From NCBI RefSeq assembly GCF_006210265.1, contig NZ_VCNC01000003.1, positions 310,001-374,000 on the forward strand: a stretch of 64,000 nt of DNA, in the 5' to 3' direction. Position numbers and translations under genes: made by a program. The notes beneath the pieces were generated by a model, which saw nothing but the letters and a program-made list of their open reading frames with translations, did no database searches and was not told the origin of the DNA. Below are positions 2,528 through 30,704 of the stretch, one piece after another. How positions within the stretch are numbered: the first letter of the stretch is position 1; every line of letters starts with the position of its first letter. The stretch is from Desulfovibrio sp. UCD-KL4C (GTDB lineage: Bacteria; Desulfobacterota; Desulfovibrionia; Desulfovibrionales; Desulfovibrionaceae).

Positions 2528-2605
2528 TGGCGTTCCCAAGGGGATTTGAACCCCTGTCGCCTGCGTGAAAGGCAGGTGTCCTAGGCCAGGCTAGACGATG
2601 GGAAC
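2528..2605 (-). tRNA. tRNA-Glu (anticodon TTC)
   Basis: Reading the minus strand: acceptor GTTCCCA pairs with TGGGAAC. The anticodon loop contains TTC between CCTGC and GCAGG arms, the T-arm is GGGGTTCAAATCCCC, and CCA is encoded. 78 nt with CCA. Second gene of the tRNA-Gln/tRNA-Glu unit. Confidence 0.95.
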
Positions 2606-2633
2606 GCATCTAAAAATATGCAAATTTTCGTTG

Positions 2634-2708
2634 TGGCAGGGACACAAGGACTCGAACCTTGATTGACGGAACCAGAATCCGCTGTCCTGCCAATTGAACG
2701 ATGTCCCT
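2634..2708 (-). tRNA. tRNA-Gln (anticodon CTG)
   Basis: Minus strand acceptor AGGGACA pairs with TGTCCCT. The seven-base loop TTCTGGT gives anticodon CTG, which reads CAG. CCA is encoded, 75 nt in all. First gene of the unit, 28 nt before tRNA-Glu. Confidence 0.95.
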
Positions 2709-2721
2709 GCAACGAGAAGCC

Positions 2722-2750
2722 TTTCTATGTGGATTGTTCTATTCTGTCAA
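2722..2750 (-). promoter_or_regulatory. Sigma-70 promoter of the tRNA-Gln/Glu unit
   Basis: On the minus strand TTGACA (2745-2750), a 17-nt spacer and TAGAAA (2722-2727), just upstream of tRNA-Gln. The spacer end AATCCACA is shared with the promoter of the second unit. Confidence 0.75.
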
Positions 2751-3027
2751 CTACTTATCACACTGTTTTTGGAGGAATATGAAATTTTGTTAATTTTAGC
2801 AATATTAGCTGGTTGGTCATGCTTTAAAATTAGATTCTAAGGGTGTTTTTTTTAATTATTGAAGGAGGTTCTGCTGTTTGCCGTTTAGAACTGTTAAATG
2901 GCTTCTGTAGGGGTAGAATTAAAGCGTAGTACTAAAGGATGAACCTGTAAATATGACTTAGGATAATTTATGCAGGCAGATATGTCGGATGTGAGGGCAA
3001 ATTAGAAAATTTCTATTTATAAAACGA
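2751..3027. other. Non-coding gap between the two tRNA units
   Basis: About 280 AT-rich bases. No convincing open frame, RNA structure or repeat was seen. An AGGAGG-like string near 2865 is not followed by a usable start codon and frame. Confidence 0.5.
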
Positions 3028-3062
3028 AAAAAGGACTGAATCTTGCGATTCAGTCCTTTTTC
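3028..3062 (-). terminator. Terminator of the upstream tRNA unit
   Basis: The stem AAAAGGACTGAATC/GATTCAGTCCTTTT with a four-base loop and flanking A and T runs lies directly 3' of the tRNA-Glu at 3070-3147. It separates the two tRNA units. Confidence 0.85.
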
Positions 3063-3069
3063 AAATTCG

Positions 3070-3147
3070 TGGCGTCCCCAAGGGGATTTGAACCCCTGTC
3101 GCCTGCGTGAAAGGCAGGTGTCCTGGGCCAGGCTAGACGATGGGGAC
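3070..3147 (-). tRNA. tRNA-Glu (anticodon TTC), acceptor variant
   Basis: Nearly identical to the other two tRNA-Glu genes. The acceptor stem is GTCCCCA/TGGGGAC, a compensated change of one pair (T-A to C-G), and there is one D-arm difference (CCC for CCT). The compensation suggests it is functional. Last gene before the terminator at 3028. Confidence 0.95.
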
Positions 3148-3257
3148 GCATCTAAAATATCGTACCTGCTTCTGCGAGCCTGATCGCGTTGGTGAAGCGG
3201 GTTAAGTTGCAGCCAGCTCGACTCTATTGGCTTTAACGAGTCTTCACTGTTTTTGAT

Positions 3258-3335
3258 TGGCGTTCCCAAGGGGATTTGAACCCCTGTCGCCTGCGTGAAA
3301 GGCAGGTGTCCTAGGCCAGGCTAGACGATGGGAAC
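3258..3335 (-). tRNA. tRNA-Glu (anticodon TTC)
   Basis: By eye the same sequence as the copy at 2528-2605, including the encoded CCA. Middle gene of the Gln-Glu-Glu unit. Confidence 0.95.
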
Positions 3336-3358
3336 GCATTAATCAAAAAAAGTGTTGC

Positions 3359-3433
3359 TGGCAGGGACACAAGGACTCGAACCTTGATTGACGGAACCAG
3401 AATCCGCTGTCCTGCCAATTGAACGATGTCCCT
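3359..3433 (-). tRNA. tRNA-Gln (anticodon CTG)
   Basis: By eye identical to the copy at 2634-2708. First gene of the Gln-Glu-Glu unit, 23 nt before the next tRNA. Confidence 0.95.
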
Positions 3434-16885: not shown

Positions 16886-17215
16886 TTAAAGAGTTTCTTC
16901 ACCGGTTCTGATTCTGATAGTTCTTGGAAGGTCTTGAACGAAGATAACTCCGTCGCCTTCTTTACCAGTCTGAGCACCGGCTTTAATAGCATCAATGGCA
17001 CCTTCAACCTTATCTGCGGCAAGTCCAAGTTCTATGCGTACTTTTTTAAGAAGATTAACTTCCATAATGACACCGCGATAAGTTTCAGTGAATCCTGCCT
17101 GTCTACCTGAACCAAGAATGTTGGTTACGGACATGGTGTAGATTCCTTTTGCGTAGAGAGCCTGTTTTATCGGAGTCAGGCACTCGGGACGAATATATGC
17201 AATAATAAGTTTCAT
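16886..17215 (-). CDS. PII signal-transduction protein
   Basis: 109 residues from ATG 17215, chosen because AGAGGA lies 9 nt upstream; the ATG at 17224 abuts that site. Family marks are the T-loop GSGRQAGFTETYRG, the B-loop TGKEGDG and the C-terminal IRIRTGEE. PII trimers bind ATP, ADP and 2-oxoglutarate and plug ammonium channels. It follows amt by 28 nt, the standard amt-glnK arrangement. Aligned to E. coli GlnB, the uridylylated Tyr51 is Met50 here, and the Lys after the B-loop (Lys90) is Val. So it is probably not uridylylated and may handle nucleotide differently. Confidence 0.93.
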   Translation of the reverse strand: MKLIIAYIRPECLTPIKQALYAKGIYTMSVTNILGSGRQAGFTETYRGVIMEVNLLKKVRIELGLAADKVEGAIDAIKAGAQTGKEGDGVIFVQDLPRTIRIRTGEETL

Positions 17216-17243
17216 TTGTTTCATTCCTCTTTCTATTGTGTGA

Positions 17244-18614
17244 CTATTCGTTAGAGAAGACCTGGAAGCCGCTGTAAGACTCCATTCCGTGTTCAGATAT
17301 ATCAAGGCCCTTCATTTCTTCTTCTTTTGTTACTCTGATTCCGATGAATGCTTTAGCGAGCATGAAGGTGATGAGACCTGCACCGAATGCCCATACAAAG
17401 ACTGTTACAACACCTATGATCTGAGTAGTCAGGATAGAGACTCCACCGCCGTAGAATAGTCCGCCTACACCGTCGTGAAGTTCAGGAACTGTGAACAATC
17501 CACAAGCTAGTGTTCCCCATGCTCCGCAGACACCGTGTACGGAAACAGCACCGACTGGATCATCAATTTTGAATATTTTATCAATCAATTCAATTGAGAG
17601 TACTACAAGCACACCTGCAATCAGTCCGATTATGATTGAACCGGCAGGAGAGACAGTTGCACAGCCTGCGGTAATTCCTACAAGGCCGGCGAGGGCTCCG
17701 TTACAGGTCATTGAAATGTCAGGTTTTCCGTATTTGATCCAAGATGTGATCATTGCTCCAAGCAGACCTGCACAACCGGAAAGGCTTGTTACTACTGCGA
17801 TGAGACCGATTGAACCGTCAGCGGTTGTTGTTGAGCCCGGGTTGAATCCGAACCAACCGAACCAAAGAATGAATACACCAAGAGATGCTAATGGAATGTT
17901 GTGGCCTGGAATAGCTTTTGCTTTTCCGTCAGCAGTGTATTTCCCGATACGTGGTCCGACTACGATAGCTCCTGCAAGAGCAACCCAGCCACCTACGGAG
18001 TGAACAACAGTTGAGCCTGCAAAGTCCATGAATCCTAAGCCTTCAAGCCATCCTGCTCCTGAATCTCCGAGCCAGAGACTGCCCCATGCCCAGTGACCTG
18101 AAATAGGGTAGATAAGTCCTGTTACTATCATGGTAACAAAGAAGTAGCTGCTGAATTTTGTGCGTTCGGCAATACCACCGGAAACAATTGTAGCTGCAGT
18201 TGCGGCAAAAACAGACTGGAAGAACCAGAAGGTCAGTGTCCACTGTGCGTCAGGGCTGGTCAGGCCTACTCCTGCCAAGCTGAACCCTGATGTTCCTACA
18301 AAACCTGCAGCATCAAGTCCGAACATGAGTCCGAAGCCGAAAAGGAAAAAGATGATAGAACCTGCGGCAAAATCAAGAAAGTTTTTCATTAGGATATTAC
18401 CGGCGCTTTTGGCTCTGGTGAATCCTGCTTCAACACATGCAAATCCTGCCTGCATAAACATAACGAGTATGGCAGCAACAAGTGTCCATAAAATGTTAGC
18501 GTGGGTCTGAGTAAGATACTCTTCGCCAGCAAAAGCTGCAGTCGGTGCAGCCAGCATCAGCACAGCGAGAATGGTCGAAATTTTCCGGCCTATTGATGGA
18601 AATTTAGAAATCAT
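17244..18614 (-). CDS. amt: Ammonium transporter Amt
   Basis: 456 residues from ATG 18614, which has GGAGGA upstream. A cleavable signal peptide (ending TAAFAGEE) is followed by eleven membrane helices, as in Gram-negative AmtB. Signature stretches are QAGFACVEAGFTRAKSAGNILMK cut as two conserved halves near helix 2, GHWAWG, FAGSTVVHSVGGW and SVHGVCGAWGTL with the twin-histidine region. It conducts ammonium into the cell and is gated by PII. Its promoter is of the sigma-54 type, so expression is probably nitrogen-controlled. Confidence 0.96.
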   Translation of the reverse strand: MISKFPSIGRKISTILAVLMLAAPTAAFAGEEYLTQTHANILWTLVAAILVMFMQAGFACVEAGFTRAKSAGNILMKNFLDFAAGSIIFFLFGFGLMFGLDAAGFVGTSGFSLAGVGLTSPDAQWTLTFWFFQSVFAATAATIVSGGIAERTKFSSYFFVTMIVTGLIYPISGHWAWGSLWLGDSGAGWLEGLGFMDFAGSTVVHSVGGWVALAGAIVVGPRIGKYTADGKAKAIPGHNIPLASLGVFILWFGWFGFNPGSTTTADGSIGLIAVVTSLSGCAGLLGAMITSWIKYGKPDISMTCNGALAGLVGITAGCATVSPAGSIIIGLIAGVLVVLSIELIDKIFKIDDPVGAVSVHGVCGAWGTLACGLFTVPELHDGVGGLFYGGGVSILTTQIIGVVTVFVWAFGAGLITFMLAKAFIGIRVTKEEEMKGLDISEHGMESYSGFQVFSNE

Positions 18615-18661
18615 GAAGTCCTCCTCCAGGGTGTAAATTGCTTTAAGGATGTTGCTAACCA

Positions 18662-18677: not shown

Positions 18678-18834
18678 ATTATTTAACTAATTGATAATAT
18701 TGATTTTTTGTAGGAACTGGTGTTTTTATGGGTTACAAAAATGTATTAATATACTTTTTTGTGTACTTTTATGTTCTTTAAATTGACAAAAAAGTAACTA
18801 ATTAGTTTTGCGTGTTTTTGTTTTTCATTTGAAA
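18678..18834. other. AT-rich control region between amt and the aromatic operon
   Basis: No open frame. It holds a perfect palindrome AACTAATTAGTT (18796-18807), about 120-130 bp upstream of the amt -24 element, which could be an activator site for the sigma-54 promoter. Otherwise featureless. Confidence 0.3.
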
Positions 18835-18862
18835 TTAACAATTATCGAGTATTATATATGAT
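18835..18862 (+). promoter_or_regulatory. Likely promoter of the aromatic operon
   Basis: TTAACA (18835-18840), a 16-nt spacer and TATGAT (18857-18862). RNA would begin near 18870, about 50 nt before the leader peptide. An alternative is TTGACT at 18884-18889 with a poor -10. Confidence 0.45.
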
Positions 18863-18919
18863 AGAAAAAAATTAATAAAGTTGTTGACTCTTTTGAGCGA
18901 GAGTGGTTACGTGTTTCCT

Positions 18920-19018
18920 ATGCAAACTTTCAACTCTTCAGGCGCTAGCCAATCATTTTTTTATTACTTTTACTTTTGGTGCACCCACGCTTGTGGTCGT
19001 GTGGAGGTTTGCTCGTAA
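18920..19018 (+). CDS. Aromatic attenuator leader peptide
   Basis: A 32-codon frame starting ATG 18920 (a GTG at 18911 is also in frame) and ending TAA 19016-19018. Residues 13-20 are FFYYFYFW: eight consecutive aromatic codons covering Phe, Tyr and Trp. It lies directly before a terminator and an operon for synthesis of exactly these three amino acids. A run like this has no plausible role in a folded 32-residue peptide and is the hallmark of ribosome-mediated attenuation. The ribosome site is weak (GAGAGTGG upstream of the GTG), so the exact start is uncertain; the aromatic run and stop are not affected. Confidence 0.88.
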   Translation: MQTFNSSGASQSFFYYFYFWCTHACGRVEVCS

Positions 19019-19065
19019 GTAATAAAAAATCTTAGCAAACTACCTCTACTAAAGGGCCGCAGGCG
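18988..19065 (+). promoter_or_regulatory. Antiterminator of the aromatic attenuator
   Basis: Composite hairpin. The outer helix 18988-18998 pairs with 19055-19065 (11 bp, three G-U). The inner helix 19001-19013 pairs with 19034-19049 (13 bp, 3-nt bulge). The outer helix consumes the 5' arm of the terminator, so the two are mutually exclusive. A ribosome at the leader stop codon would cover 19001-19013 and destroy it. Confidence 0.75.
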
Positions 19066-19092
19066 ATAACTCGCCGGCGGCCCTTTTTTTTT
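19051..19092 (+). terminator. Attenuator terminator before the aromatic operon
   Basis: GGGCCGC-a-GGCG pairs with CGCC-g-GCGGCCC around a six-base loop, followed by nine T. It lies 33 nt after the leader stop codon and 61 nt before the first structural gene. Confidence 0.9.
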
Positions 19093-19152
19093 AGCTGAGG
19101 TCGCCAGAGGAAAGCGGTTTTGAAGTAAGGGTGAAACAATCGGAGAATTAAA

Positions 19153-19950
19153 ATGGATGTCGGAAAAAAAATCAGACTTGAAAGAATTTTCAATAGAGCA
19201 ACTGAAAGAACAGTAATTGTTCCTATGGACCACGGTATCAGTGTCGGCCCCATCGCAGGTCTTGAAAATATGCGACAGGCTGTAGATGACATGGTTGCCG
19301 GAGGAGCCAACGCTGTTCTCGGTCATAGAGGTCTTGTTCGTTGCGGACACCGTAGCGAAGGGCAGGATGTCGGTCTTATTGTTCACCTTTCTGCTAGCAC
19401 ATCTCTTTCTCCCACTCCCAATGCTAAAGTTTTGGTAGGTTCTGTTGAAGACGCTCTCCGCCGTGGTGCTGATGCTGTAAGTGTTCATGTCAATCTCGGA
19501 GATGAGACTGAAACACAGATGCTCCGTGATCTAGGTGAAGTTTCCGCAAAAGCCACCAGCTGGGGAATGCCTGTTCTTGCTATGGTTTACGCTCGCGGAC
19601 CTAAAATAAAAAATGAATATGATCCTGAAATTGTTGCACATTGTGCCCGTGCAGGTGAAGAGCTTGGCGCTGATATTGTTAAGGTTTCTTACACCGGTGA
19701 TCCTGAGTCTTTTGGACGTGTTGTTGATGGGTGCTGTATTCCGATTGTTATCGCAGGCGGTCCTAAGCTCGATTCAACAAGATCTTTTCTCCAGATGGTT
19801 TCAGATTCAATCAGCGCAGGTGGAGCCGGTCTTTCCGTTGGACGCAATGTTTTTCAGCATAAAAATCGCGTGAAGCTGGTAAAAGCTCTTAGTAAAGTTG
19901 TCCATCAGGACGAAACTGTTGAAGCAGCTCTCGAATTTCTTGGCGAATAA
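19153..19950 (+). CDS. 2-amino-3,7-dideoxy-D-threo-hept-6-ulosonate synthase
   Basis: 265 residues, class I aldolase-like TIM barrel. It joins a sugar-phosphate-derived ketone with aspartate semialdehyde to give ADH, the first step of the archaeal-type route to dehydroquinate that replaces DAHP synthase and AroB. Motifs include [18 protein letters not shown] near the N-terminus, the central [12 protein letters not shown] (Schiff-base Lys) and a phosphate-binding [12 protein letters not shown]. The next gene encodes the partner enzyme DHQ synthase II, which supports this call over a fructose-bisphosphate aldolase. First structural gene of the operon, behind the attenuator. Confidence 0.92.
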
Positions 19951-20955: not shown

Positions 20956-22059
20956 ATGTCAGAATCCAGCGAAAAGAATTTGAATCACCTCAGAGAAGAA
21001 ATTGATACACTTGATGGTGAGATACTTGAGCTTCTCAATAAGCGAGCTGCAGCATCTCTTTCGGTAGGTAAGCTCAAAGCAGGGTCCGCAGATCAAATCT
21101 TTAAACCTTTTAGAGAGCAGGAAGTTCTCAGAGGTTTGACAGACCGTAATCCCGGTCCGCTTCCAGGTGAACATCTCGAGGGTATTTATCGCGAGATTAT
21201 TTCCTCATCACGCAGATTGCAGCGCCCTGAAAGAGTTGTCTATCTGGGGCCTGAAGGAACATTTTCTTACTTTGCCGGATTAGAGCACATGGGACGGCAG
21301 GCTGATCTTGTCCCGAAAAATAATTTTGAAGACATTTTTGTAGCTGTTTCCAAAGGTGAAGCTGACCTTGGCATTATTCCTCTTGAAAATTCTCTTGCAG
21401 GAACAGTCGGGCAGAATGTTGATTTGTTCATGCGTTATCCAGTTTATATTCAGGATGAATTGTATAGCCGTATCAGTCATGCTCTAATTACCAAAGGTTC
21501 TGGGCTTGATCAGATTAAGACAGTCTATTCACATATAAAAGTTTTAGAACAGTGCGCCGGGTGGCTGCGAAGTAACCTTCCTGATGTGAAGTTGGAAGCT
21601 GTTGATTCTACTGCAAAGGCAGCTTCAATGGTTGCACAGGGTGATGATACATGCGCAGCTTTGGGCAACATCAAACTGGCTAATATTTTCGGACTTCATG
21701 TGGTTTGTGAAGCTGTAGAAGATTTTGCGGATAATTGGACAAGATTTTTAATAATCGGTCCTAAACCGGGAATCGAAGGTAAAAGAGATAAAACCACTAT
21801 TCTTTTTACCACCCCTGACCAGCCGGGAGCTCTCGTCGGAGTTCTTAATGTTCTCTCCGGTAAAGATATTAATATGACTAAGCTGGAATCTCGTCCTTTT
21901 TTAGGTGAAAAATGGAAGTATATGTTTTTTGTAGATCTTCAGGGCAATCTCAGTGCTGATGAATATGAAAGCATCATTGATGAACTCAGGTCACGCTGTC
22001 TAACTTTCAAAATTCTGGGAAGTTATCCAAGTGGATCGCAGAACGGAAGTAGACTTTAG
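20956..22059 (+). CDS. pheA: Bifunctional chorismate mutase/prephenate dehydratase
   Basis: 367 residues from ATG 20956 (GAGGAATAATAG upstream; the frame is open further into the previous gene but without a site). Residues ~10-90 are an AroQ-type chorismate mutase (LREEIDTLDGEILELLNKRA). Residues ~95-270 are prephenate dehydratase (YLGPEGTFSYFA, PLENSLAGTVG, TRFLIIG). The last ~80 residues are an ACT domain with GALVGVLNVL and ESRP, which binds phenylalanine for feedback inhibition. Together they convert chorismate to phenylpyruvate. So Phe acts both on this enzyme and, through the attenuator, on its transcription. Confidence 0.96.
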   Translation: MSESSEKNLNHLREEIDTLDGEILELLNKRAAASLSVGKLKAGSADQIFKPFREQEVLRGLTDRNPGPLPGEHLEGIYREIISSSRRLQRPERVVYLGPEGTFSYFAGLEHMGRQADLVPKNNFEDIFVAVSKGEADLGIIPLENSLAGTVGQNVDLFMRYPVYIQDELYSRISHALITKGSGLDQIKTVYSHIKVLEQCAGWLRSNLPDVKLEAVDSTAKAASMVAQGDDTCAALGNIKLANIFGLHVVCEAVEDFADNWTRFLIIGPKPGIEGKRDKTTILFTTPDQPGALVGVLNVLSGKDINMTKLESRPFLGEKWKYMFFVDLQGNLSADEYESIIDELRSRCLTFKILGSYPSGSQNGSRL

Positions 22060-22095: not shown

Positions 22096-23430
22096 ATGAC
22101 TTCTGATAATGTAATAAAAATCAAGGCTCCTTCATCAAAGTCTATGTCGCATAGAGCACTTATCGCAGGTGCTTTTTCAGACGGGTCGACTGTGGTGATT
22201 GATCCGCTTGACAGTAACGATATCAATCGGACTATGGACTGCCTTACAACCATGGGAGCGCAGTTCAGTGTTGAGCAGAATTCTACCACCGTTACAGGTC
22301 TGCATGATGGTCCGCACGGCGGCTTAAAAGAACCAGCTGTTCTTGAAATGAGAGATTCAGGAACAACTTGTAGACTTATCACAGCTATTGCAGGAGCCGG
22401 AAAAGGCGTTTTTCGTATTCAGGGAACACCTCGAATGCATGACCGTCCTATCGGAGAACTTACCAAAGCTCTTGAGTCTCAGGGCGTAAAAGTTACTTTT
22501 GCCGATAAAAAAGGATATCCTCCTGTAACTCTTGAATCTAATGGATTTCTTGGCGGAGATATTGAAATCTCCCTTGAGGAAAGCAGTCAGTATCTTTCAG
22601 GTTTATTGTTGGCCGCTCCGTATGCACATAAAACAACGGTGATTAAAGTTGTAGGCAAAAAAGCTGTTTCATGGCCGTATGTTGCATTGACTCTTAAGGT
22701 TATGGAAGATTTTAAAATTTCATTTTCTGTTGAAGCTTTTAAGAACGGAGAGTGGAAAAAGACAAACTGGAGAAAAGTTTCTAAAGTTGTCCCCGGTGAA
22801 ATAAGATTTCGCGTGAATCCTTCTGATTACAAAAAAGACAATTATGAAGTTGAAGGTGACTGGAGTAACGGGTCTTACTTTTTAGCTGCCGGAGCGGTTG
22901 GAACTAAACCTGTCAGAGTTAAAGGGCTTGCGATTGATTCCTTGCAGGGCGACAGGGCAATTATTGATATTTTGAAAGCTATGGGCGCGAAGATAGAAAG
23001 TGACTCTTCCGGAGTTACTGTTTACCCTTCAAAGTTACATGGAGTTGAAGTTGATATGGGGCTGTGTCCGGATCTTGTTCCAACGGTAGCAGTTGCAGCA
23101 GCTTTTGCTGACAGCCCTACAACTATAACTAATGTAGCGCATTTGCGTATTAAAGAATGTGACCGTCTGGATGCCAGTGCTACTGAAGTAATAAGAGCAG
23201 GCGGTAAAGCCGAGATCGGAGATGACTTCATTAAAATTTTTCCGGCACCACTGAAAAAGGGTGAAAAAATAATTTTTTCGACATATGACGATCATAGACT
23301 GGCAATGAGTACAGCTATTTTCAGCTTAGCCGGAATTGAAGCTGTTGCTAAGGAACCGGAATGTGTTGCAAAGTCGTTCCCTGAGTTCTGGAAGGAATGG
23401 GATAAAGTTAAAAAGGGGAATGGTTGCTAA
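22096..23430 (+). CDS. aroA: 3-phosphoshikimate 1-carboxyvinyltransferase (EPSP synthase)
   Basis: 444 residues. Forms EPSP from shikimate-3-phosphate and phosphoenolpyruvate. Conserved motifs are KAPSSKSMSHRALIAGAF (start), LEMRDSGTTCRLI, RIKECDRLDA and YDDHRLAMS. A GGAATAAACGG stretch precedes the ATG. A short insertion around residues 205-240 (FKNGEWKKTNWRKVSKVV) is more basic than in most AroA proteins. Its end lies next to the tyrA start. Confidence 0.96.
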   Translation: MTSDNVIKIKAPSSKSMSHRALIAGAFSDGSTVVIDPLDSNDINRTMDCLTTMGAQFSVEQNSTTVTGLHDGPHGGLKEPAVLEMRDSGTTCRLITAIAGAGKGVFRIQGTPRMHDRPIGELTKALESQGVKVTFADKKGYPPVTLESNGFLGGDIEISLEESSQYLSGLLLAAPYAHKTTVIKVVGKKAVSWPYVALTLKVMEDFKISFSVEAFKNGEWKKTNWRKVSKVVPGEIRFRVNPSDYKKDNYEVEGDWSNGSYFLAAGAVGTKPVRVKGLAIDSLQGDRAIIDILKAMGAKIESDSSGVTVYPSKLHGVEVDMGLCPDLVPTVAVAAAFADSPTTITNVAHLRIKECDRLDASATEVIRAGGKAEIGDDFIKIFPAPLKKGEKIIFSTYDDHRLAMSTAIFSLAGIEAVAKEPECVAKSFPEFWKEWDKVKKGNGC

Positions 23431-23431
23431 C

Positions 23432-24208
23432 ATGGAATCTGACTTTAGCAAAATCCATAGCATTGCCGTAGTCGGTTCAAGAGGGCAGATGGGAGGTTTT
23501 TTAGCCCTTAAGGCCGAACGGGCAGGGTTGCTTGTCCATAGATTTGATCAGCCTCTTGATGAGAAAGAGATGGTTCGTCTCCTCCCCGTTAGTGATCTCG
23601 TTATTTTATGTGTTCCGGTAACTGTTATGGATGAGGTGCTTAGTAAGGTTGTTCCTCATATGAAAAAAGGTTCTGTTTTATCAGATGTAGGTTCTGTAAA
23701 AGGGCGCCCCTTGCAGCAGATGGTAAGAGCTTATGACGGCCCTGTTGTAGGAACTCACCCTTTATTCGGCGCAACTATTCCTGTTGATTTTGAGCCGACA
23801 GTTGCTCTTGTTGCAGGAAGGGAAGAAGACAAAGGCGCGCTTGAGTCCGTTAAAGATTTTTATAGTCGTTTAGGATTTGGCGCATTCGCATCAACTGAAG
23901 AAGAACATGATCGGGCAATGGCAATGATTCAAAGTTTAAATTTTAGTTCTACCATAGCTTTTTTAGCATGTGCGAGAGAACTGCCTAACATTGAAAAATT
24001 TGTGACTCCGTCTTTCAGGCGTAGGCTTGAGTCCGCGCGTAAAATGGTAACACAGGATAGTGATCTTTTTGTAACTATTTCTGATGCAAATCAGTATAGC
24101 CTTGAAGCTATTCGACTTTTCCGTTCCTTCCTCAGCCTTGCTGCATCCGGTGATATGGACCTCCTTTCCGAACGTGCTTCTTGGTGGTGGCGTGAAAACA
24201 ATACCTAG
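23432..24208 (+). CDS. tyrA: Prephenate dehydrogenase
   Basis: 258 residues from ATG 23432, with AGGGGA 12 nt upstream inside the end of aroA; the frame is open further upstream into aroA but only as overlap. The N-terminal Rossmann fold has VVGSRGQMGGFLALKAERAG. Further marks are SDVGSVKGRP, GTHPLFGATIP and the helical C-terminal dimer domain. It oxidises prephenate (or arogenate) to the tyrosine precursor. No mutase or ACT domain is attached; the chorismate mutase activity is in PheA. Confidence 0.92.
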   Translation: MESDFSKIHSIAVVGSRGQMGGFLALKAERAGLLVHRFDQPLDEKEMVRLLPVSDLVILCVPVTVMDEVLSKVVPHMKKGSVLSDVGSVKGRPLQQMVRAYDGPVVGTHPLFGATIPVDFEPTVALVAGREEDKGALESVKDFYSRLGFGAFASTEEEHDRAMAMIQSLNFSSTIAFLACARELPNIEKFVTPSFRRRLESARKMVTQDSDLFVTISDANQYSLEAIRLFRSFLSLAASGDMDLLSERASWWWRENNT

Positions 24209-24231
24209 GGAGAACTGTATTTAAAAAAAGT

Positions 24232-24266
24232 AAAGCCGCATTCTCCCAGAGGATGCGGCTTTTTTT
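24232..24266 (+). terminator. Terminator between tyrA and trpE
   Basis: AAAGCCGCAT/ATGCGGCTTT with an 11-nt loop and seven T. It splits the aromatic genes into two blocks. The loop TTCTCCC can pair with GGGAGAA at 24208-24214, which overlaps the tyrA stop codon. Confidence 0.88.
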
Positions 24267-24322: not shown

Positions 24323-25735
24323 ATGAAAATCGAATTGACTCAGTACGGCAAATGGTTGCCAGCTGATGTGCAAACACCGATCAGTCTTTATCTTGGACTG
24401 GTTGGAGATGCACCTGGAATACTTCTCGAAAGTGCCGAAGTTGACGGAAGACTTGGACGATACAGTCTTATTGCTTGGGATTTTAGGCTTGTCCTGTCGC
24501 CAGTACGCGGAAAATTATCTGTAGAGTGCGCAGACTCTCGTCTTGCCGGGCTTGCACAGTATTCAGGTATGGATTTTCTGGAAGGGTTACGCGCAGTGAT
24601 GAAAGCTCTGCATGTGAATCCTCAGGAGGAAGTCGGCCCTCTTCCAGCTTTGACAAGAGGATTATACGGCACATTCGGTTACGGTATTGCCGGAATGCTC
24701 GAACCTAAGTTGGCTGATAAAATTCCAGCTAAAGAAGCTGAGGTCCGTTTGGCTCTGCCTGGGCGGGTTGTTTTATTTGACCACTTAAAACATCGTTGCT
24801 GCTTTCTTTCTCTTGATGGAGGGGCCAAGCCGGAATTCACACCTCAGGATTTCAACAGCAAATGCGAACCTACTGTAGTCGGTGAGCCTGTAGCTGTACC
24901 GGGACGTGAAAAGTATATGGAAAACGTTGAAAAAGTGCGTGAACTTATTGCAGAAGGTGAGTGCATTCAGGTGGTTCTTTCTACCCGTTTCTCAGCTCCT
25001 TTCAGCGGTAATTCTTTCGACCTTTATCGTCGTCTCAGGCAGGCAAATCCATCGCCATTTATGTTCTACATGAAATTCAGCCGTGAAGAAATTCTGCTTG
25101 GATCTTCCCCTGAAATGATGGCTCGCTGTGAACGTGGCAGACTCGAAGTCCGTCCAATCGCCGGAACCCGTCCAAGAGGTAAAGATGCTGCTGAAGATAG
25201 AAAATATACCGCAGAGCTTCTTGCTGATCCTAAAGAACGGGCTGAACACGTAATGCTTGTCGATCTTGGTCGTAACGACCTTGGACGTATTGCCAAGCCC
25301 GGCTCTGTTACCGTTGAGAAATTTATGCAGGTTGAATATTTCAGCCATGTTATGCACATGACTTCATATGTAGAAGCTGACCTTCGTGATGAATATGATG
25401 CCATTGATGTCTTGCAGGCCACTTTTCCCGCCGGAACTCTTTCCGGTGCTCCCAAAATAAGAGCAATGGAAATAATTTCTGAACTCGAAGAAGTGCCCCG
25501 CGGACCTTATGGCGGAGCAATCGGTTTTATAGGTCTGGATAAGGATTCAATCAATCTTGATACCGGAATCACCATCCGTTCAATGTGGATCAGAGACGGC
25601 AAGTGTCATTGGCAGGCAGGGGCCGGACTCGTTTACGATTCCGATCCTGAAATGGAATGGAAAGAATGTAACAATAAGGCAAGAGTTTTAAGAGAAATTT
25701 TGCAATCGGAGGGCGGCGATGTTTTTGCTTGTTGA
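24323..25735 (+). CDS. trpE: Anthranilate synthase component I
   Basis: 470 residues. Makes anthranilate from chorismate with ammonia delivered by TrpG. The N-terminal LLESAEVDGRLGRYS holds the tryptophan-binding LLES motif used for feedback inhibition. The chorismate-binding domain shows IQVVLSTRF, FMFYMKF, GSSPEMMARCERG, PIAGTRPRG, LVDLGRNDLGRIA and TFPAGTLSGAPKIRAME. A GGGAGCAGGAG site precedes ATG 24323. No leader peptide with Trp codons lies between the terminator and this gene. It overlaps trpG by 17 nt. Confidence 0.97.
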   Translation: MKIELTQYGKWLPADVQTPISLYLGLVGDAPGILLESAEVDGRLGRYSLIAWDFRLVLSPVRGKLSVECADSRLAGLAQYSGMDFLEGLRAVMKALHVNPQEEVGPLPALTRGLYGTFGYGIAGMLEPKLADKIPAKEAEVRLALPGRVVLFDHLKHRCCFLSLDGGAKPEFTPQDFNSKCEPTVVGEPVAVPGREKYMENVEKVRELIAEGECIQVVLSTRFSAPFSGNSFDLYRRLRQANPSPFMFYMKFSREEILLGSSPEMMARCERGRLEVRPIAGTRPRGKDAAEDRKYTAELLADPKERAEHVMLVDLGRNDLGRIAKPGSVTVEKFMQVEYFSHVMHMTSYVEADLRDEYDAIDVLQATFPAGTLSGAPKIRAMEIISELEEVPRGPYGGAIGFIGLDKDSINLDTGITIRSMWIRDGKCHWQAGAGLVYDSDPEMEWKECNNKARVLREILQSEGGDVFAC

Positions 25736-26291
25736 TAATTTTGATTCATTCACTTTCAATCTGGTTCAGGCTTTCCAGCAACTCGGAGCTGATCCGCTTG
25801 TTCTTAGAAATGATCGCGAGGAAATTCTGGAACTTGCTGAATCCGGAAAGCTTAAAATGGTTTGCCTTTCCCCGGGGCCAAGCAATCCTGAAAATGCAGG
25901 GCTCAGTCTAGAGTTTCTGGCTCGTCTTCCTAAAGAAATACCTGTTCTGGGAGTTTGCTTAGGTCATCAGACTCTCGGGCATTTTGCCGGAGCTTCTGTT
26001 GTGCGTGCGGATCGCATTATGCATGGTAAGACTTCAAAAATTTATCATAATAATGACGGATTGTTCAGCGGACTTGATGACCCCTTTGAAGTCTGCCGCT
26101 ATCATTCTTTAGTGGTTAATGTTGATGAAGCCCCTGAGCATTTGGAACTGACAGCATGGACAAATCAGCAAGAAGTAATGGGACTTCGTTATAAAGATCG
26201 TCCTTGGGCGGGAGTGCAGTTTCATCCAGAGTCGATTTTAACTCCTGACGGACCGAAACTTTTGAAGAACTTCCTTGAGGGAAATATTTAA
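25719..26291 (+). CDS. trpG: Anthranilate synthase component II (glutamine amidotransferase)
   Basis: 190 residues, class I amidotransferase: LLVDNFDSFTFNLVQ at the N-terminus, oxyanion LSPGPSNP, nucleophile motif GVCLGHQTLG (Cys ~79) and catalytic His-Glu in GVQFHPESILTP. It supplies ammonia to TrpE. Starting inside the trpE end indicates translational coupling. PabA is a possible alternative role since such subunits can be shared. Confidence 0.96.
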   Translation: MFLLVDNFDSFTFNLVQAFQQLGADPLVLRNDREEILELAESGKLKMVCLSPGPSNPENAGLSLEFLARLPKEIPVLGVCLGHQTLGHFAGASVVRADRIMHGKTSKIYHNNDGLFSGLDDPFEVCRYHSLVVNVDEAPEHLELTAWTNQQEVMGLRYKDRPWAGVQFHPESILTPDGPKLLKNFLEGNI

Positions 26292-26328
26292 TCAACCATC
26301 ATTAATCTAAGGGAATAGGGTTAGTAAA

Positions 26329-27318
26329 ATGGCGGACTGTGTAACCTCGGCTCTTACAGAGCTTACTTTTGGCAGAGACCTTTCAGCAGAGCTGGCGGGC
26401 TGCGTATTTACCTCTCTTTTTGCAGGAGAAATTTCTCCAGTACAGGCCGGAGCGTTGCTCATGGGACTTCGTGCAAAGGGAGAAACTGCAGCGGAAGTTG
26501 CTTCAGGCGTAAAAGCAGCACTCAAAGAATCTAAACTTGTTAAAGGATTGGGCGGGAAACTTATAGATACATGCGGAACAGGCGGTGACGGCAGTAACAG
26601 CTTTAACTGTTCAACTGCCGTCGCTTTGTATCTGGCAGATATGGGCTATAAGGTCGTTAAGCATGGGAATAGAGCTGTGTCTTCTTCCTGCGGGAGTGCA
26701 GATATTCTTGAAGAACTTGAAATTCCGATAACAACTCTCCCTGAAGATGTGCCTGAAGTTCTCGGCAGTGATAATTTCGTCTTCCTTTTTGCGCAGAATT
26801 ATCATCCGGCCTTTGGGAAAATTGCACCGATCAGAAAAGAGCTGGGTATCCCGACTCTCTTCAATCTGATGGGACCGCTTTTAAATCCAGCCAGACCGAC
26901 TCATCAGATTATTGGTGTCGGCAGACCTGAAATTATGCATCTTATGGCAGAAGTTCTGACTTTAACAGATGTTGATAAGGCATATGTTGTGCATGGAGCA
27001 GGCAATTTTGATGAGCTGACTCCTTTCGGCATTAACAAAGCTATTCTTGTAGAAAATGGAAAACTTACTGAGCTTGAAATTGATTCTGCTGATTATGGTT
27101 TTGCTCTTTCATCGCCTGCGGATGTAGCGGTCACTGACCGTAAAAATGCTCGTGATACGATTCGAAAAGTTTTAAAGGGAAAAGCCCCGCAAGCTATGCT
27201 TGATATGGTTGCGTTAAATCTTGGAGCAGCAATTTCATTACTTGATGGAATCGGCCTTGCTGACGGTATTGAAAAAGCAAAAGCAAAAGTCGCGGTCGGC
27301 GTTAGCAAGGAGTACTAG
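26329..27318 (+). CDS. trpD: Anthranilate phosphoribosyltransferase
   Basis: 329 residues. Transfers the phosphoribosyl group from PRPP to anthranilate. Motifs are [18 protein letters not shown] (PRPP loop), [19 protein letters not shown] and [16 protein letters not shown]. The ATG 26329 lies 37 nt after trpG. No fusion to TrpG is present, unlike in enteric bacteria. Confidence 0.96.
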
Positions 27319-27321
27319 GAG

Positions 27322-28113
27322 ATGCTTGAGAAATTTCGCATAGCCAAACAACGCGAAGTGGACATGCTCCACAAGGCTGAGTCGAAAGGGGCTTTGCCTG
27401 CGCCTTATGCGGGAGTTCGCCCGTCGTTTGCTGACGCTATCAGGCGTGACAACTTAGGCATGAAAGTTATTGCCGAGTATAAACGGGCTTCCCCTTCCAA
27501 AGGTGATATTAATCTCGGGCTCACGGCTGCCGAAGTGGCAAATATGTATGCCGGAGGAGGAGCTTCTGCAATTTCTGTTTTAACGGAAGAGCAGTATTTT
27601 AAAGGTAATATCTCCTATCTGGACGAAATTAAACCTTGCGGGCTGCCGATGCTTCGCAAAGATTTTCTAGTTGATCCGCTTCAGATTGTGCAGACCGCTT
27701 CAACTCCTGCTTCGGCTCTATTAATTATAGTACGTATGTTTGCTGATGACGGGATGCTTAAAGAGATGATTGATAAAACTCATGAGGCCGGACTTGATTG
27801 TGTTGTTGAGGCTTTTGATATGGCTGATCTTATGCGGGCTAAAAAAGCCGGAGCGCGAGTAATTCAGATTAACAATCGTGATCTTGATACTCTCGGAATC
27901 GACATGAGTAGGTCTCTAGATTTTATTAAAGAACGTGATGACAGCGAAATTTGGATTTGTGCCAGCGGCATTAATGAACCGGATGATTGCATAAAAATGG
28001 CCGAGATCGGTTATGACAGTGTGCTGGTTGGAACATCCATAATGTCGAGCGCAAGCCCGCAGGATAAACTAAATTCTTTAGTAACCGGAGCTAAGTGCGG
28101 AGCTTTGCGATGA
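27322..28113 (+). CDS. trpC: Indole-3-glycerol-phosphate synthase
   Basis: 263 residues, TIM barrel. Visible are VIAEYKRASPSKGDIN, ISVLTEEQYFKGNISYL, LRKDFLVDPLQI, VIQINNRDLDTLGID and SVLVGTSIM, holding the catalytic Lys and Glu residues of TrpC. It starts 3 nt after trpD and overlaps trpF by the ATGA type, indicating tight coupling. It is separate from TrpF, unlike the fused E. coli enzyme. Confidence 0.96.
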   Translation: MLEKFRIAKQREVDMLHKAESKGALPAPYAGVRPSFADAIRRDNLGMKVIAEYKRASPSKGDINLGLTAAEVANMYAGGGASAISVLTEEQYFKGNISYLDEIKPCGLPMLRKDFLVDPLQIVQTASTPASALLIIVRMFADDGMLKEMIDKTHEAGLDCVVEAFDMADLMRAKKAGARVIQINNRDLDTLGIDMSRSLDFIKERDDSEIWICASGINEPDDCIKMAEIGYDSVLVGTSIMSSASPQDKLNSLVTGAKCGALR

Positions 28114-28748
28114 ACATGATTGTTAAAGTTTGTGGCATGACTAGAAAGGAAGACGTTGCAAGTTGCGAAGAACTTGGTGCTGATTTTCTGGGGTTCATTT
28201 TTCATCCTTCCAGCCCGAGGTGTGTGGATGCGGAATTTGTGCGTTCGGTTGAGCTGGCGAAAGCTAAAAAAGTAGGGGTGTTTGTAAAGCAGAGCGCGAC
28301 TGAAGTTCTTGAAACTATGAAGAATGGACAACTTGATTTTGCACAGCTTCACGGTGGACAGAATGAAGAATTTTGTAAAGCTGTCGGCAGGGAACGTGTG
28401 ATTAAAGTGCTCTGGCCTCAGCGGTATGATTCGGTAAAGGAGTTTCAGGCGGATATAGATAGGTATACTCCTTTTTGCCGCTATATGCTCTTTGATGCCG
28501 GAAGTTCCGGAGGTGGACATGGCAAATCGCTCGACTTTTCAATTTTTTCAGAAGTTAAAATCCCGAATCCTTGGTTTTTGGCCGGAGGACTTACAGCAAG
28601 AAATATGCTGGAAGCCATAAGCTGTGCAAAGCCGAGTGGTGTTGATTTGAATTCCGGCGTGGAAGTCAGTCCCGGTATTAAAGATATAAATAAATTGAGT
28701 GCAGCTTTTGTTTCAGTGCACTTAGCAAATAAGAGGAACCAGTCATGA
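28110..28748 (+). CDS. trpF: Phosphoribosylanthranilate isomerase
   Basis: About 212 residues from ATG 28110, which overlaps the trpC stop as ATGA; a second ATG at 28116 (MIVKVCGM) is also possible. Motifs are VKVCGMTRKEDV, FLGFIFHPSSPR, QLHGGQNEEF, LFDAGSSGGGHGKSLDFS and LAGGLTARN, with Asp near the end acting as acid. Isomerises PRA to CdRP in tryptophan synthesis. It overlaps trpB by 4 nt. Confidence 0.95.
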   Translation: MNMIVKVCGMTRKEDVASCEELGADFLGFIFHPSSPRCVDAEFVRSVELAKAKKVGVFVKQSATEVLETMKNGQLDFAQLHGGQNEEFCKAVGRERVIKVLWPQRYDSVKEFQADIDRYTPFCRYMLFDAGSSGGGHGKSLDFSIFSEVKIPNPWFLAGGLTARNMLEAISCAKPSGVDLNSGVEVSPGIKDINKLSAAFVSVHLANKRNQS

Positions 28749-29923
28749 AAAGAGGATACTTTGGAGATTTTGGCGGACAGTTTGTACCGGAGCTGCTTAT
28801 GCCTCCGCTTCTTGAGCTTGAAGAGGCTATGGGGAAAATTTTAAAATCGGCTGAATTCCAACAGGAATTTACCAGTTTGCTTAAAAACTTTGTCGGTCGT
28901 CCTACAGCTCTTACTTATTGTGCTAATCTTTCTCGAGAACTCGGTTTCAATCTCTGGCTGAAACGTGAAGATTTAGCTCACACTGGTGCTCATAAAATTA
29001 ACAACACAGTTGGGCAGGCGTTGTTGACAAAAATGATGGGTAAACCACGGATGATAGCTGAAACAGGAGCTGGTCAGCATGGAGTTGCCACTGCAACAGC
29101 CGCTGCACTTCTTGATCTTGAATGTGAAATTTATATGGGCGCAGTTGACGTTAAACGTCAATCTCACAATGTTCGCCGTATGGAGCTTTTCGGAGCAAAG
29201 TGCATTCCGGTTGAATCCGGCACACAAACTTTAAAAGATGCAATAAACGCTGCGCTTCGCATGTGGATCGCAAATCAGCGCACTACGCATTATTGCTTCG
29301 GAACAGCTGCCGGACCGCATCCGTTCCCGCTTCTCGTAAGAGAATTTCAATCAATAATAGGTCGCGAAGCAAAACAGCAGTTTAAAGAACGTACTGGCGA
29401 GATGCCGTATATGGTTGTTGCTTGCGTAGGCGGTGGTTCCAATGCAATTGGTATGTTCCATGAGTTTGTTAGTGAAGAATCTGTTAAGATTGTTGGAGTA
29501 GAAGCTGCCGGAACAGGTGAACCGGGATGCTTTAATTCCGCTCCGATTAACTTAGGAACTCCAGGGGTTCTGCATGGAGCGCACTCTTTGCTCTTGCAGT
29601 CAGAGGACGGACAGATACTTCCATCACATTCTATTTCTGCCGGACTTGATTACCCCGGAGTAGGTCCTGAGCATGTTCATCTTCATGCATCCGGAAGAGT
29701 TCAGTATGGAATGGTTAATGACAGTCAGGCTATTAATGCTTTTAAGATGCTTTGCCACAATGAAGGGATTCTTCCTGCTCTTGAGAGCTCTCATGCTGTT
29801 GCATGGGCAATCGAGAATAAAGATTCTATTCCAAAAGGTGCAAACGTAATTGTTAACCTTTCCGGTCGTGGCGACAAAGATATGGATATTTTTGAAGACT
29901 ATCTCAAGCAGCACGGAAAATAG
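28745..29923 (+). CDS. trpB: Tryptophan synthase beta chain
   Basis: 392 residues. PLP enzyme that joins indole and serine. Start KRGYFGDFGGQFVPELLM; the PLP lysine is in REDLAHTGAHKINN; the phosphate-binding CVGGGSNAIGMF and the C-terminal LSGRGDKDMDIF are present. This is the standard TrpB1 type that works in a complex with TrpA. GAGGAACC precedes the ATG. Confidence 0.97.
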   Translation: MKRGYFGDFGGQFVPELLMPPLLELEEAMGKILKSAEFQQEFTSLLKNFVGRPTALTYCANLSRELGFNLWLKREDLAHTGAHKINNTVGQALLTKMMGKPRMIAETGAGQHGVATATAAALLDLECEIYMGAVDVKRQSHNVRRMELFGAKCIPVESGTQTLKDAINAALRMWIANQRTTHYCFGTAAGPHPFPLLVREFQSIIGREAKQQFKERTGEMPYMVVACVGGGSNAIGMFHEFVSEESVKIVGVEAAGTGEPGCFNSAPINLGTPGVLHGAHSLLLQSEDGQILPSHSISAGLDYPGVGPEHVHLHASGRVQYGMVNDSQAINAFKMLCHNEGILPALESSHAVAWAIENKDSIPKGANVIVNLSGRGDKDMDIFEDYLKQHGK

Positions 29924-29936
29924 CGGAGCAAATAAA

Positions 29937-30704
29937 ATGATTATTACAACACTTGCTGATAAAATAAATGATGCTAATGCAAAGGGGCGCACAGCTCTTA
30001 TTCCTTTTCTTCCCGGTGGATATCCGGATAAAGAAAAATTCTGGAAAGAAATTCTTGAACTGGATGCTAACGGAGCGGACATAATTGAAATAGGAATGCC
30101 TTTTTCCGATCCTGTTGCGGATGGTCCTGTTGTTGAGGCAGCTTCCCTTAAATGCCTTGATGCCGGAGTTAATTTGAAATGGATTCTTGAAGGATTAGCA
30201 AAAGTCCGTTCGCAGATAAATGCAGGCATCGTACTGATGGGATATTACAATCCGGTACTGCAATACGGTCTTGAAAAGTTTGCGAAAGATGCCAATTCCG
30301 CTGGGGTAAACGGTTTGATTATTGCCGATTTACCGTACGAAGAAGGTGTCGAATTCCGTGATTTACTAGCCAAAAACGAAGTAGCCCTTGTTCCGCTAGT
30401 AGGACTTAATACATCACCTGAACGTATGAAACTATACGCCGATGGTGGGAATGGCTTTTGTTATTTTGTTTCGGTACTTGGAACAACGGGTGATCGTGAT
30501 TCATTGCCGGAAGAAATTAAGGTTGGCCTTAAGCAGGCAAAAGAAATATTTAATATTCCGGTTGCTCTAGGGTTCGGATTGAAACATCCGTCACAGCTGA
30601 TACAGCTTGAAGGGTTGGTTGACGCGGCAGTGTTCGGTTCTGCTCTTATCCGTCATCTCGGTGATGGAAAAAGTTGTGCTGAATTTATGAAGGTTTGGAA
30701 GTAG
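29937..30704 (+). CDS. trpA: Tryptophan synthase alpha chain
   Basis: 255 residues from ATG 29937 (GCGGAGC upstream; earlier in-frame codons lie inside trpB). Releases indole from indole-glycerol phosphate. Conserved are LIPFLPGGYPD, IIEIGMPFSDPVADGPVV with the catalytic Glu and Asp region, and GFGLKHPSQ. It is the last gene of the operon and is followed by a very long hairpin. Confidence 0.96.
   Translation: MIITTLADKINDANAKGRTALIPFLPGGYPDKEKFWKEILELDANGADIIEIGMPFSDPVADGPVVEAASLKCLDAGVNLKWILEGLAKVRSQINAGIVLMGYYNPVLQYGLEKFAKDANSAGVNGLIIADLPYEEGVEFRDLLAKNEVALVPLVGLNTSPERMKLYADGGNGFCYFVSVLGTTGDRDSLPEEIKVGLKQAKEIFNIPVALGFGLKHPSQLIQLEGLVDAAVFGSALIRHLGDGKSCAEFMKVWK

Follow-up and report, generated by a model that had tools for sequence, protein, structure and literature searches.

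Phe, Trp and His leaders are known, and the ilv and thr leaders mix codons for several amino acids. A putative attenuator of D. vulgaris was listed in 2005, from the Merino website, before the operon aroA'>aroB'>aroQ-pheA>aroF>tyrA>[trp] (PMC1173090, Table 7). That operon is the same as ours and has the same gene order; its entry in the table names neither a leader peptide nor a sensed amino acid. In S. meliloti the first nucleotides of the trpL RNA are the ATG of the leader ORF (PMC7298713). In the portions of the literature that our searches returned we found neither the leader peptide nor the tyrA element reported below described, although both may overlap with further published predictions.

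The locus lies in a 64,000-nucleotide stretch of Desulfovibrio sp. UCD-KL4C DNA, which as a whole is referred to as the window. A short leader gene there, rich in codons for Phe, Tyr and Trp, is probably what turns on an operon of twelve genes when any one of the three amino acids is in short supply. The twelve genes lie on one strand, in the order ADH synthase, DHQS II, pheA, aroA, tyrA and trpE-G-D-C-F-B-A:

19153..19950, + strand: ADH synthase (2-amino-3,7-dideoxy-D-threo-hept-6-ulosonate synthase), NCBIfam TIGR01949
19956..20951, + strand: 3-dehydroquinate synthase II (DHQS II), NF002628; start codon provisional
20956..22059, + strand: pheA, chorismate mutase/prephenate dehydratase
22096..23430, + strand: aroA, EPSP synthase, TIGR01356
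23420..24208, + strand: tyrA, prephenate dehydrogenase, C-terminus ...ERASWWWRENNT
24323..30704, + strand: trpE, trpG, trpD, trpC, trpF, trpB, trpA

ADH synthase has one close copy in the genome, the next match being 35% identical. Elsewhere in the window, five tRNA genes, seemingly a repeated cluster, occupy 2531-3433 on the minus strand, and a divergent ammonium transporter gene lies at 16886-18623, also on the minus strand; the frame behind it resembles a PII protein by eye.

The region before the first gene contains the following elements:

18884..18912, + strand: putative promoter (TTGACT at 18884-18889, spacer of 17, weak -10 TTACGT at 18907-18912)
18920..19018, + strand: leader peptide ORF of 32 codons, encoding MQTFNSSGASQSFFYYFYFWCTHACGRVEVCS; kept in the genus
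18956..18979, + strand: control codons FFYYFYFW, within the leader ORF
18988..18998, + strand: antiterminator outer helix, 5' strand; spans the codons for the peptide's ACG
19001..19013, + strand: antiterminator inner helix, 5' strand; visible in the genus
19015..19030, + strand: segment complementary to the aromatic run; in the minimum free energy fold, a translation-free hairpin enclosing 18988-19013
19034..19049, + strand: antiterminator inner helix, 3' strand; bulge at 19039-19041
19055..19065, + strand: antiterminator outer helix, 3' strand, which is also the terminator 5' arm
19051..19092, + strand: intrinsic terminator with nine T; compensatory changes in relatives

A sequence-only reading of the window had placed a 32-codon frame at 18920-19018 and the run FFYYFYFW at 18956-18979, and both are where it put them. 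A short ORF with control codons thus stands before the operon, its translation being presumed. The run is present in 16 of 17 genomes of the genus (the seventeenth, L096, offers just 206 nt of upstream sequence), and relatives keep its aromatic class despite exchanges of Phe for Tyr and an extra codon. By itself the run is little proof, because stretches of six consecutive Phe or Tyr codons are not rare: the pattern matches 16 times in the genome on both strands, against 35 matches for the reversed pattern. The rarity of the run was therefore dropped as a sole argument.

The terminator stands before the first gene and is conserved. Its nine T (19084-19092) are as had been claimed; the stem is not the 11 bp proposed, consisting instead of 10 bp (19051-19060 with 19077-19086) and 5 bp (19062-19066 with 19071-19075) on either side of an A-G mismatch (19061/19076), with a folding energy of -28.7 kcal/mol (z -5.8). 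When the terminator 3' arm is absent, the predicted fold is a composite antiterminator of 24 bp (-34 kcal/mol, z -5.3), comprising an outer helix of 11 bp (18988-18998 with 19055-19065) and an inner helix of 13 bp (19001-19008 with 19042-19049 and 19009-19013 with 19034-19038). Since it uses the terminator 5' arm, this antiterminator is predicted to exclude the terminator. A composite helix of about 24 bp that takes up the terminator arm had been described, and it is present; competition is limited to the outer 11 bp, however, and does not involve the helix as a whole, the inner part being compatible with the terminator. At full length the lower energy belongs to the terminator together with the inner helix (-48.1 kcal/mol, versus -34.9 for the antiterminator), so that read-through would require kinetic capture, with the antiterminator forming first during transcription. 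In known attenuators the antiterminator likewise forms first in transcription. If a ribosome sits on the final codon of the run and its leading edge is taken to be at 18991, what is left of the antiterminator can still fold, at -24.7 kcal/mol.

None of this corresponds to a catalogued family: at the gathering threshold the leader has no Rfam match, and 18830-19160 gives sub-gathering scores only. Phe_leader (RF01859) scores 14.5 bits, below its gathering threshold of 55; Trp_leader (RF00513) has no gathering-level match in the window and, in 18830-19160, no match at E values up to 10; and the T-box model (RF00230) has no covariance-model match in the window or in 18830-19160.

Judged by the position of the promoter, the first RNA nucleotide would fall on the leader ATG or at most about 2 nt away. 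In the genus the -10 element is weak. Across relatives, TTGAC lies 35-40 nt 5' of the leader ATG in 112 of the 162 leaders called by the rule given below, 89 of these at -37 or -36, and 99 of the 112 are without a Shine-Dalgarno match. TTGAC lies farther upstream in 31 leaders, 24 of which have such a match (Fisher p 4e-12), and was not found within range in 19, of which 13 are without one. The simplest reading is that most leaders with a close TTGAC are leaderless and the others have an ordinary start; the leader mRNA in the window, accordingly placed among the former by its promoter, is probably leaderless, a feature that the sequence-only reading missed. On the same evidence, the position of TTGAC across leaders, a promoter match at 18835 was set aside as less likely than TTGACT at 18884. 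The S. meliloti trpL RNA likewise starts with the leader ATG (PMC7298713); it belongs to another phylum and has another structure, and the start proposed here follows from promoter position only. Upstream of the promoter, an AT-rich, partly symmetric element at about 18846-18866 is conserved in the genus (e.g., CCATTATATTAATGATGG, from a relative). It could be an operator.

To recognise the device in other genomes we used a four-part rule, drawn up after many of the loci had been inspected: an ATG-initiated ORF of 15-45 codons; at least four aromatic residues in nine; a terminator; and pairing of the terminator arm with sequence 6-42 nt before the end of the stop codon. Of 186 unique ADH-synthase loci in the order, the rule called 162, of which 150 have at least six aromatic residues in nine, and left 24 uncalled. 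Dinucleotide shuffles were called once in 558 trials and reverse complements in none of 186. Chance does not account for the joint occurrence of run, terminator and competing helix. The 186 loci are those for which at least 300 nt of upstream sequence was fetched; as ADH synthase is present in 319 of 348 genomes of the order at the cutoff used, they represent only part of it. Outside the order, 13 of 61 ADH-synthase loci (other Desulfobacterota, other phyla and archaea) were called.

Covariation was measured in an alignment of 69 leaders less than 80% alike by string-similarity ratio, drawn from 172 by arm position and aromatic count, a choice that favours helix-bearing loci. The outer helix is paired in 669 of 748 cells, against 37-43% when slid by 1-3 positions. 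At the pair 18992-19061 we found T-A in 41 leaders, C-G in 18, T-G in 6 and A-T in 2, that is, pairing in 67 of 69, which none of 500 shuffles equalled. Opposite 19076, its partner in the terminator stem, position 19061 is paired in just 21 of the 69 (shuffle mean 14.9; none of 500 as good). The difference suggests that the antiterminator is selected for itself: the outer helix seems to be kept for its own sake, even where the terminator is unpaired. Taken locus by locus the signal is mostly weak: the antiterminator beat all 40 shuffles in 38 of 172 cases, and in 80 of 172 two shuffles at most were as good; for the window, 7 of 40 were as good.

Two further pairings were followed across the order. 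The inner helix cannot be aligned order-wide, being 47-48% paired with its distal part counted one base off register; its region nevertheless folds better than shuffles in 38 of 69 leaders (z below -1.64). The hairpin between the run and the sequence after the stop codon was rejected as a general feature, since 7 of 158 loci score better than every one of 40 shuffles and in 25 of 158 two or fewer were as good; it is a feature of the genus only. The comparison with relatives that the earlier reading had proposed thus bears out the conserved run and the compensatory changes in the outer helix and terminator.

The end of tyrA holds a second set of elements, which the sequence-only reading did not report:

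24182..24190, + strand: three Trp codons in tandem near the 3' end of tyrA (TGGTGGTGG, five codons before the stop), the proposed sensor
24208..24214, + strand: GGGAGAA at the stop codon of tyrA, 5' strand of the predicted internal antiterminator
24232..24266, + strand: internal terminator in the tyrA-trpE gap, 14-bp stem at 24232-24262 followed by T
24241..24247, + strand: TTCTCCC within the 5' arm of the terminator, 3' strand of the predicted internal antiterminator

Control codons near the end of an ORF, a terminator after it and a predicted competing pairing are all found here, and these Trp codons and the terminator before trpE probably constitute a second, internal attenuator. In the window, the pairing of GGGAGAA with TTCTCCC was matched by 1 of 100 shuffles; the stretch 24182-24266 has no Rfam family match at gathering. 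In a first set of trp-linked operons, a terminator follows tyrA in 22 of 31 (the window included), and the pairing is equalled by at most 5 of 100 shuffles in 13 of the 22 and by none in 7 (the worst, L304, by 53). For a second set, trpE was searched in 30 genomes and found in 26: a terminator follows tyrA in all 26, and 21 pass at the same 5 in 100 (the worst, L426, has 76). These counts are not independent, because many of the genomes are close relatives (11 of the 26 in the second set are from the genus). In one member of the second set, L427, the tyrA end is broken and the terminator is 95 nt away.

A less likely alternative is that the internal element is not an attenuator, the Trp-rich tail of TyrA being structural and the tyrA-trpE terminator merely lowering distal expression. 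In three genomes (L285-L287) TyrA keeps WWW, and within the 7-14 kb fetched neither trpE nor a terminator was found; short-gap operons still carry WW or WWW. Almost gapless operons have no terminator (L271, L273, L274, L283 and L289), and L258, L281, L291 and L293 have a gap yet no terminator by the rule. From these cases we conclude that the tail is partly structural, and that its role as a sensor would have been acquired later. Against a purely structural role stand the terminator found after tyrA in 48 of the 57 operons examined, many of them close relatives, the terminator-arm pairing, which 5 or fewer of 100 shuffles equal in 34 of the 48, and the short ORFs with a similar ending (WWWR...GGDV) that precede some separate trpE genes.

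Short ORFs with WWW often precede separate trpE genes, both in the order and in Desulfobacterales-type genomes (L337-L348, L380-L398). A search for trpE covered 15 genomes of the order in which the DNA examined showed no trp gene in the ADH-synthase operon or did not extend far enough; the gene was found in 13, by coordinates never downstream of the ADH-synthase operon. A short ORF with at least three W in nine residues lies before trpE in 7 of these 13 loci; among 18 further trpE loci, whose genomes mostly bear the title Desulfobacterales or Desulfobacteraceae, 13 have one (one of 19 was dropped because its upstream DNA was short; the weaker L399-L401 were excluded). Together, such ORFs precede 20 of 31 trpE loci, detachment of trp being established for 13 of the 31, and occur in none of 620 shuffles. 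At least two W are found before 26 of the 31 and also in 61 of the 620 shuffles, so that only the triple W is telling.

The codons of the leader before ADH synthase vary with the genes that follow. In the window they match: the operon makes the three amino acids for which the run codes. The fetched DNA includes 30 operons with trp genes; the rule called the leaders of 28, and each of the 28 has F, Y and W; the two trp-linked loci missed by the rule, L298 and L306, have visible F/Y/W runs (YFFWYFY; L320, from the same genome as L306). In the order, DHQS II follows ADH synthase at 110 loci, of which 104 have called leaders, 92 with W and 12 without, and 6 were not called. Stand-alone loci, defined by absence of DHQS II from the downstream DNA examined (at least 1 kb), number 34, with 22 called (the call at L330 is doubtful) and 12 not. 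Their runs are Phe-only or Phe-rich (FFFFFSF, FFFFFGFF), Tyr-rich (YYYY, YYYGY) or mixed, and W is found in 2 of the 22, L198 and L220; the latter is the sole ADH-synthase copy in its genome at the cutoff, and the genome of the former is 83% complete. A further 42 loci, assigned to neither the operon nor the stand-alone group, gave 35 FYW leaders, 1 FY leader and 6 without a call.

Several genomes have both kinds of leader, among them G284, G282, G299, G301, G241, G106, G077, G111, G211 and G213, and in each of those named F, Y and W are all present in the leader of the operon, with no W in the stand-alone one. Tandem ADH-synthase genes were seen at L319, L320, L308 and L309, each copy in L308/L309 apparently having its own leader. 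The idea that a mixed run serves a joint operon is supported by these data, the run changing with gene content, and the leaders of related sulfate reducers tend to carry codons that match the gene copy behind them.

Loss of tryptophan synthesis points the same way, suggestively only, because the genomes were partly chosen for W-less leaders. A trpD match was found in 30 of 40 genomes searched and not in the other 10. Leaders were seen in 7 of the 10, with W absent from 6 (two of these, L156 and L177, seen by eye only, their terminators not passing the rule); the seventh, G086, has a leader with W, and its genome is 83% complete. Of the 30 genomes with trpD, two with two differing leaders were excluded and five had no leader in hand, leaving 23 with one clear leader, 17 with W and 6 without (Fisher p 0.009 versus the trpD-less). 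Nine operon leaders have no trp genes in at least 11 kb examined, and W persists in 4 of them.

These comparisons bear on whether the leader responds to tryptophan alone, like a classical trp attenuator, with the Phe and Tyr codons an incidental T-rich sequence. The operon does include trpE-A, the run in the window does end with a Trp codon, and T-rich Phe/Tyr runs are common by chance in the genome; but in stand-alone ADH-synthase copies the structure is kept while the run is Phe-only or Tyr-rich, Phe/Tyr runs are kept in genomes without a trpD match, and aromatic residues persist through changes of codon and number, all of which makes this explanation very improbable. That the peptide itself acts, by TnaC-like nascent-chain arrest or, with the terminated RNA, in trans as peTrpL and rnTrpL do in S. 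meliloti, where such roles are reported for a leaderless attenuator RNA and its peptide (PMC7298713), we regard as the least credible alternative, since the often conserved peptide tail (ACGxGE-like) is encoded by codons that overlap the outer helix, L246 keeps the helix and encodes IAA instead of ACG, and in L091 the frame shifts right after the outer strand.

The leader is thus, with high probability, a ribosome-mediated transcription attenuator that senses the charging of Phe-, Tyr- and Trp-tRNA: the sequence, the predicted helices, the covariation and the match of codons to genes are observed, and from them we infer stalling, termination and read-through. Transcription would start near the leader ATG, with a ribosome trailing RNA polymerase. 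Were any of the three charged tRNAs scarce, the ribosome would stall within 18956-18979, leaving 18988-19013 free to pair with the emerging 19034-19065; the terminator 5' arm would then be held and polymerase would read through into the twelve genes. With all three plentiful, a ribosome at the stop codon (19016-19018) would cover the inner strand and the terminator would form. In untranslated RNA of the genus, the run may pair with 19015-19030, making termination the default. In a second step, the Trp codons of tyrA would probably serve as the leader of a Trp-only attenuator before trpE.

The wider proposal, which we favour with reserve, is of two-step control: a leaderless F/Y/W leader at the head of the operon, and further in a Trp-only attenuator that sets the output of trpE-A and has as its leader peptide a full enzyme, through the C-terminus of TyrA (WWW). 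The module would be retuned through its codons, being Phe- or Tyr-rich before a duplicated ADH synthase and Trp-rich where trp has left the operon, with W often lost together with Trp synthesis.

If this is true, these loci make up a series of natural attenuators with varying codons, a largely unchanged RNA device and known genes behind each, and a multivalent attenuation logic (an OR over three tRNAs) becomes directly testable. Sulfate reducers would tune the isozymes of the first aromatic step via leader codons; in E. coli the same tuning is done by repressor proteins and feedback. An enzyme gene that doubles as a leader ORF would widen the notion of a leader peptide, and the tyrA case suggests that attenuators are possibly hidden behind ordinary genes in other operons.

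With the trp, pheA, pheST and his attenuators of E. coli the present leader shares a short ORF of control codons, a terminator, a competing antiterminator and a biosynthetic operon; unlike theirs, its run mixes three aromatic amino acids, and the ORF itself, ahead of its stop codon, contains the conserved antiterminator strand. The mixed run had been thought unusual. Mixture as such is known elsewhere, the ilvGMEDA and thrABC leaders likewise responding to several amino acids of one pathway; the aromatic trio does differ from these, as does a codon set that varies with paralogue and operon content. The uORFC-13-1 motif before aroF of Acholeplasma (PMC8632094) also has a uORF with Phe codon(s), a terminator and a position at the first shikimate step; it comes from another phylum, and its account there describes no mixed run. 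A putative attenuator before this operon had been listed earlier for D. vulgaris, and what appears to be new, within ribosome-mediated attenuation as the presumed function, is the mixed aromatic leader and the retuning of its codons.
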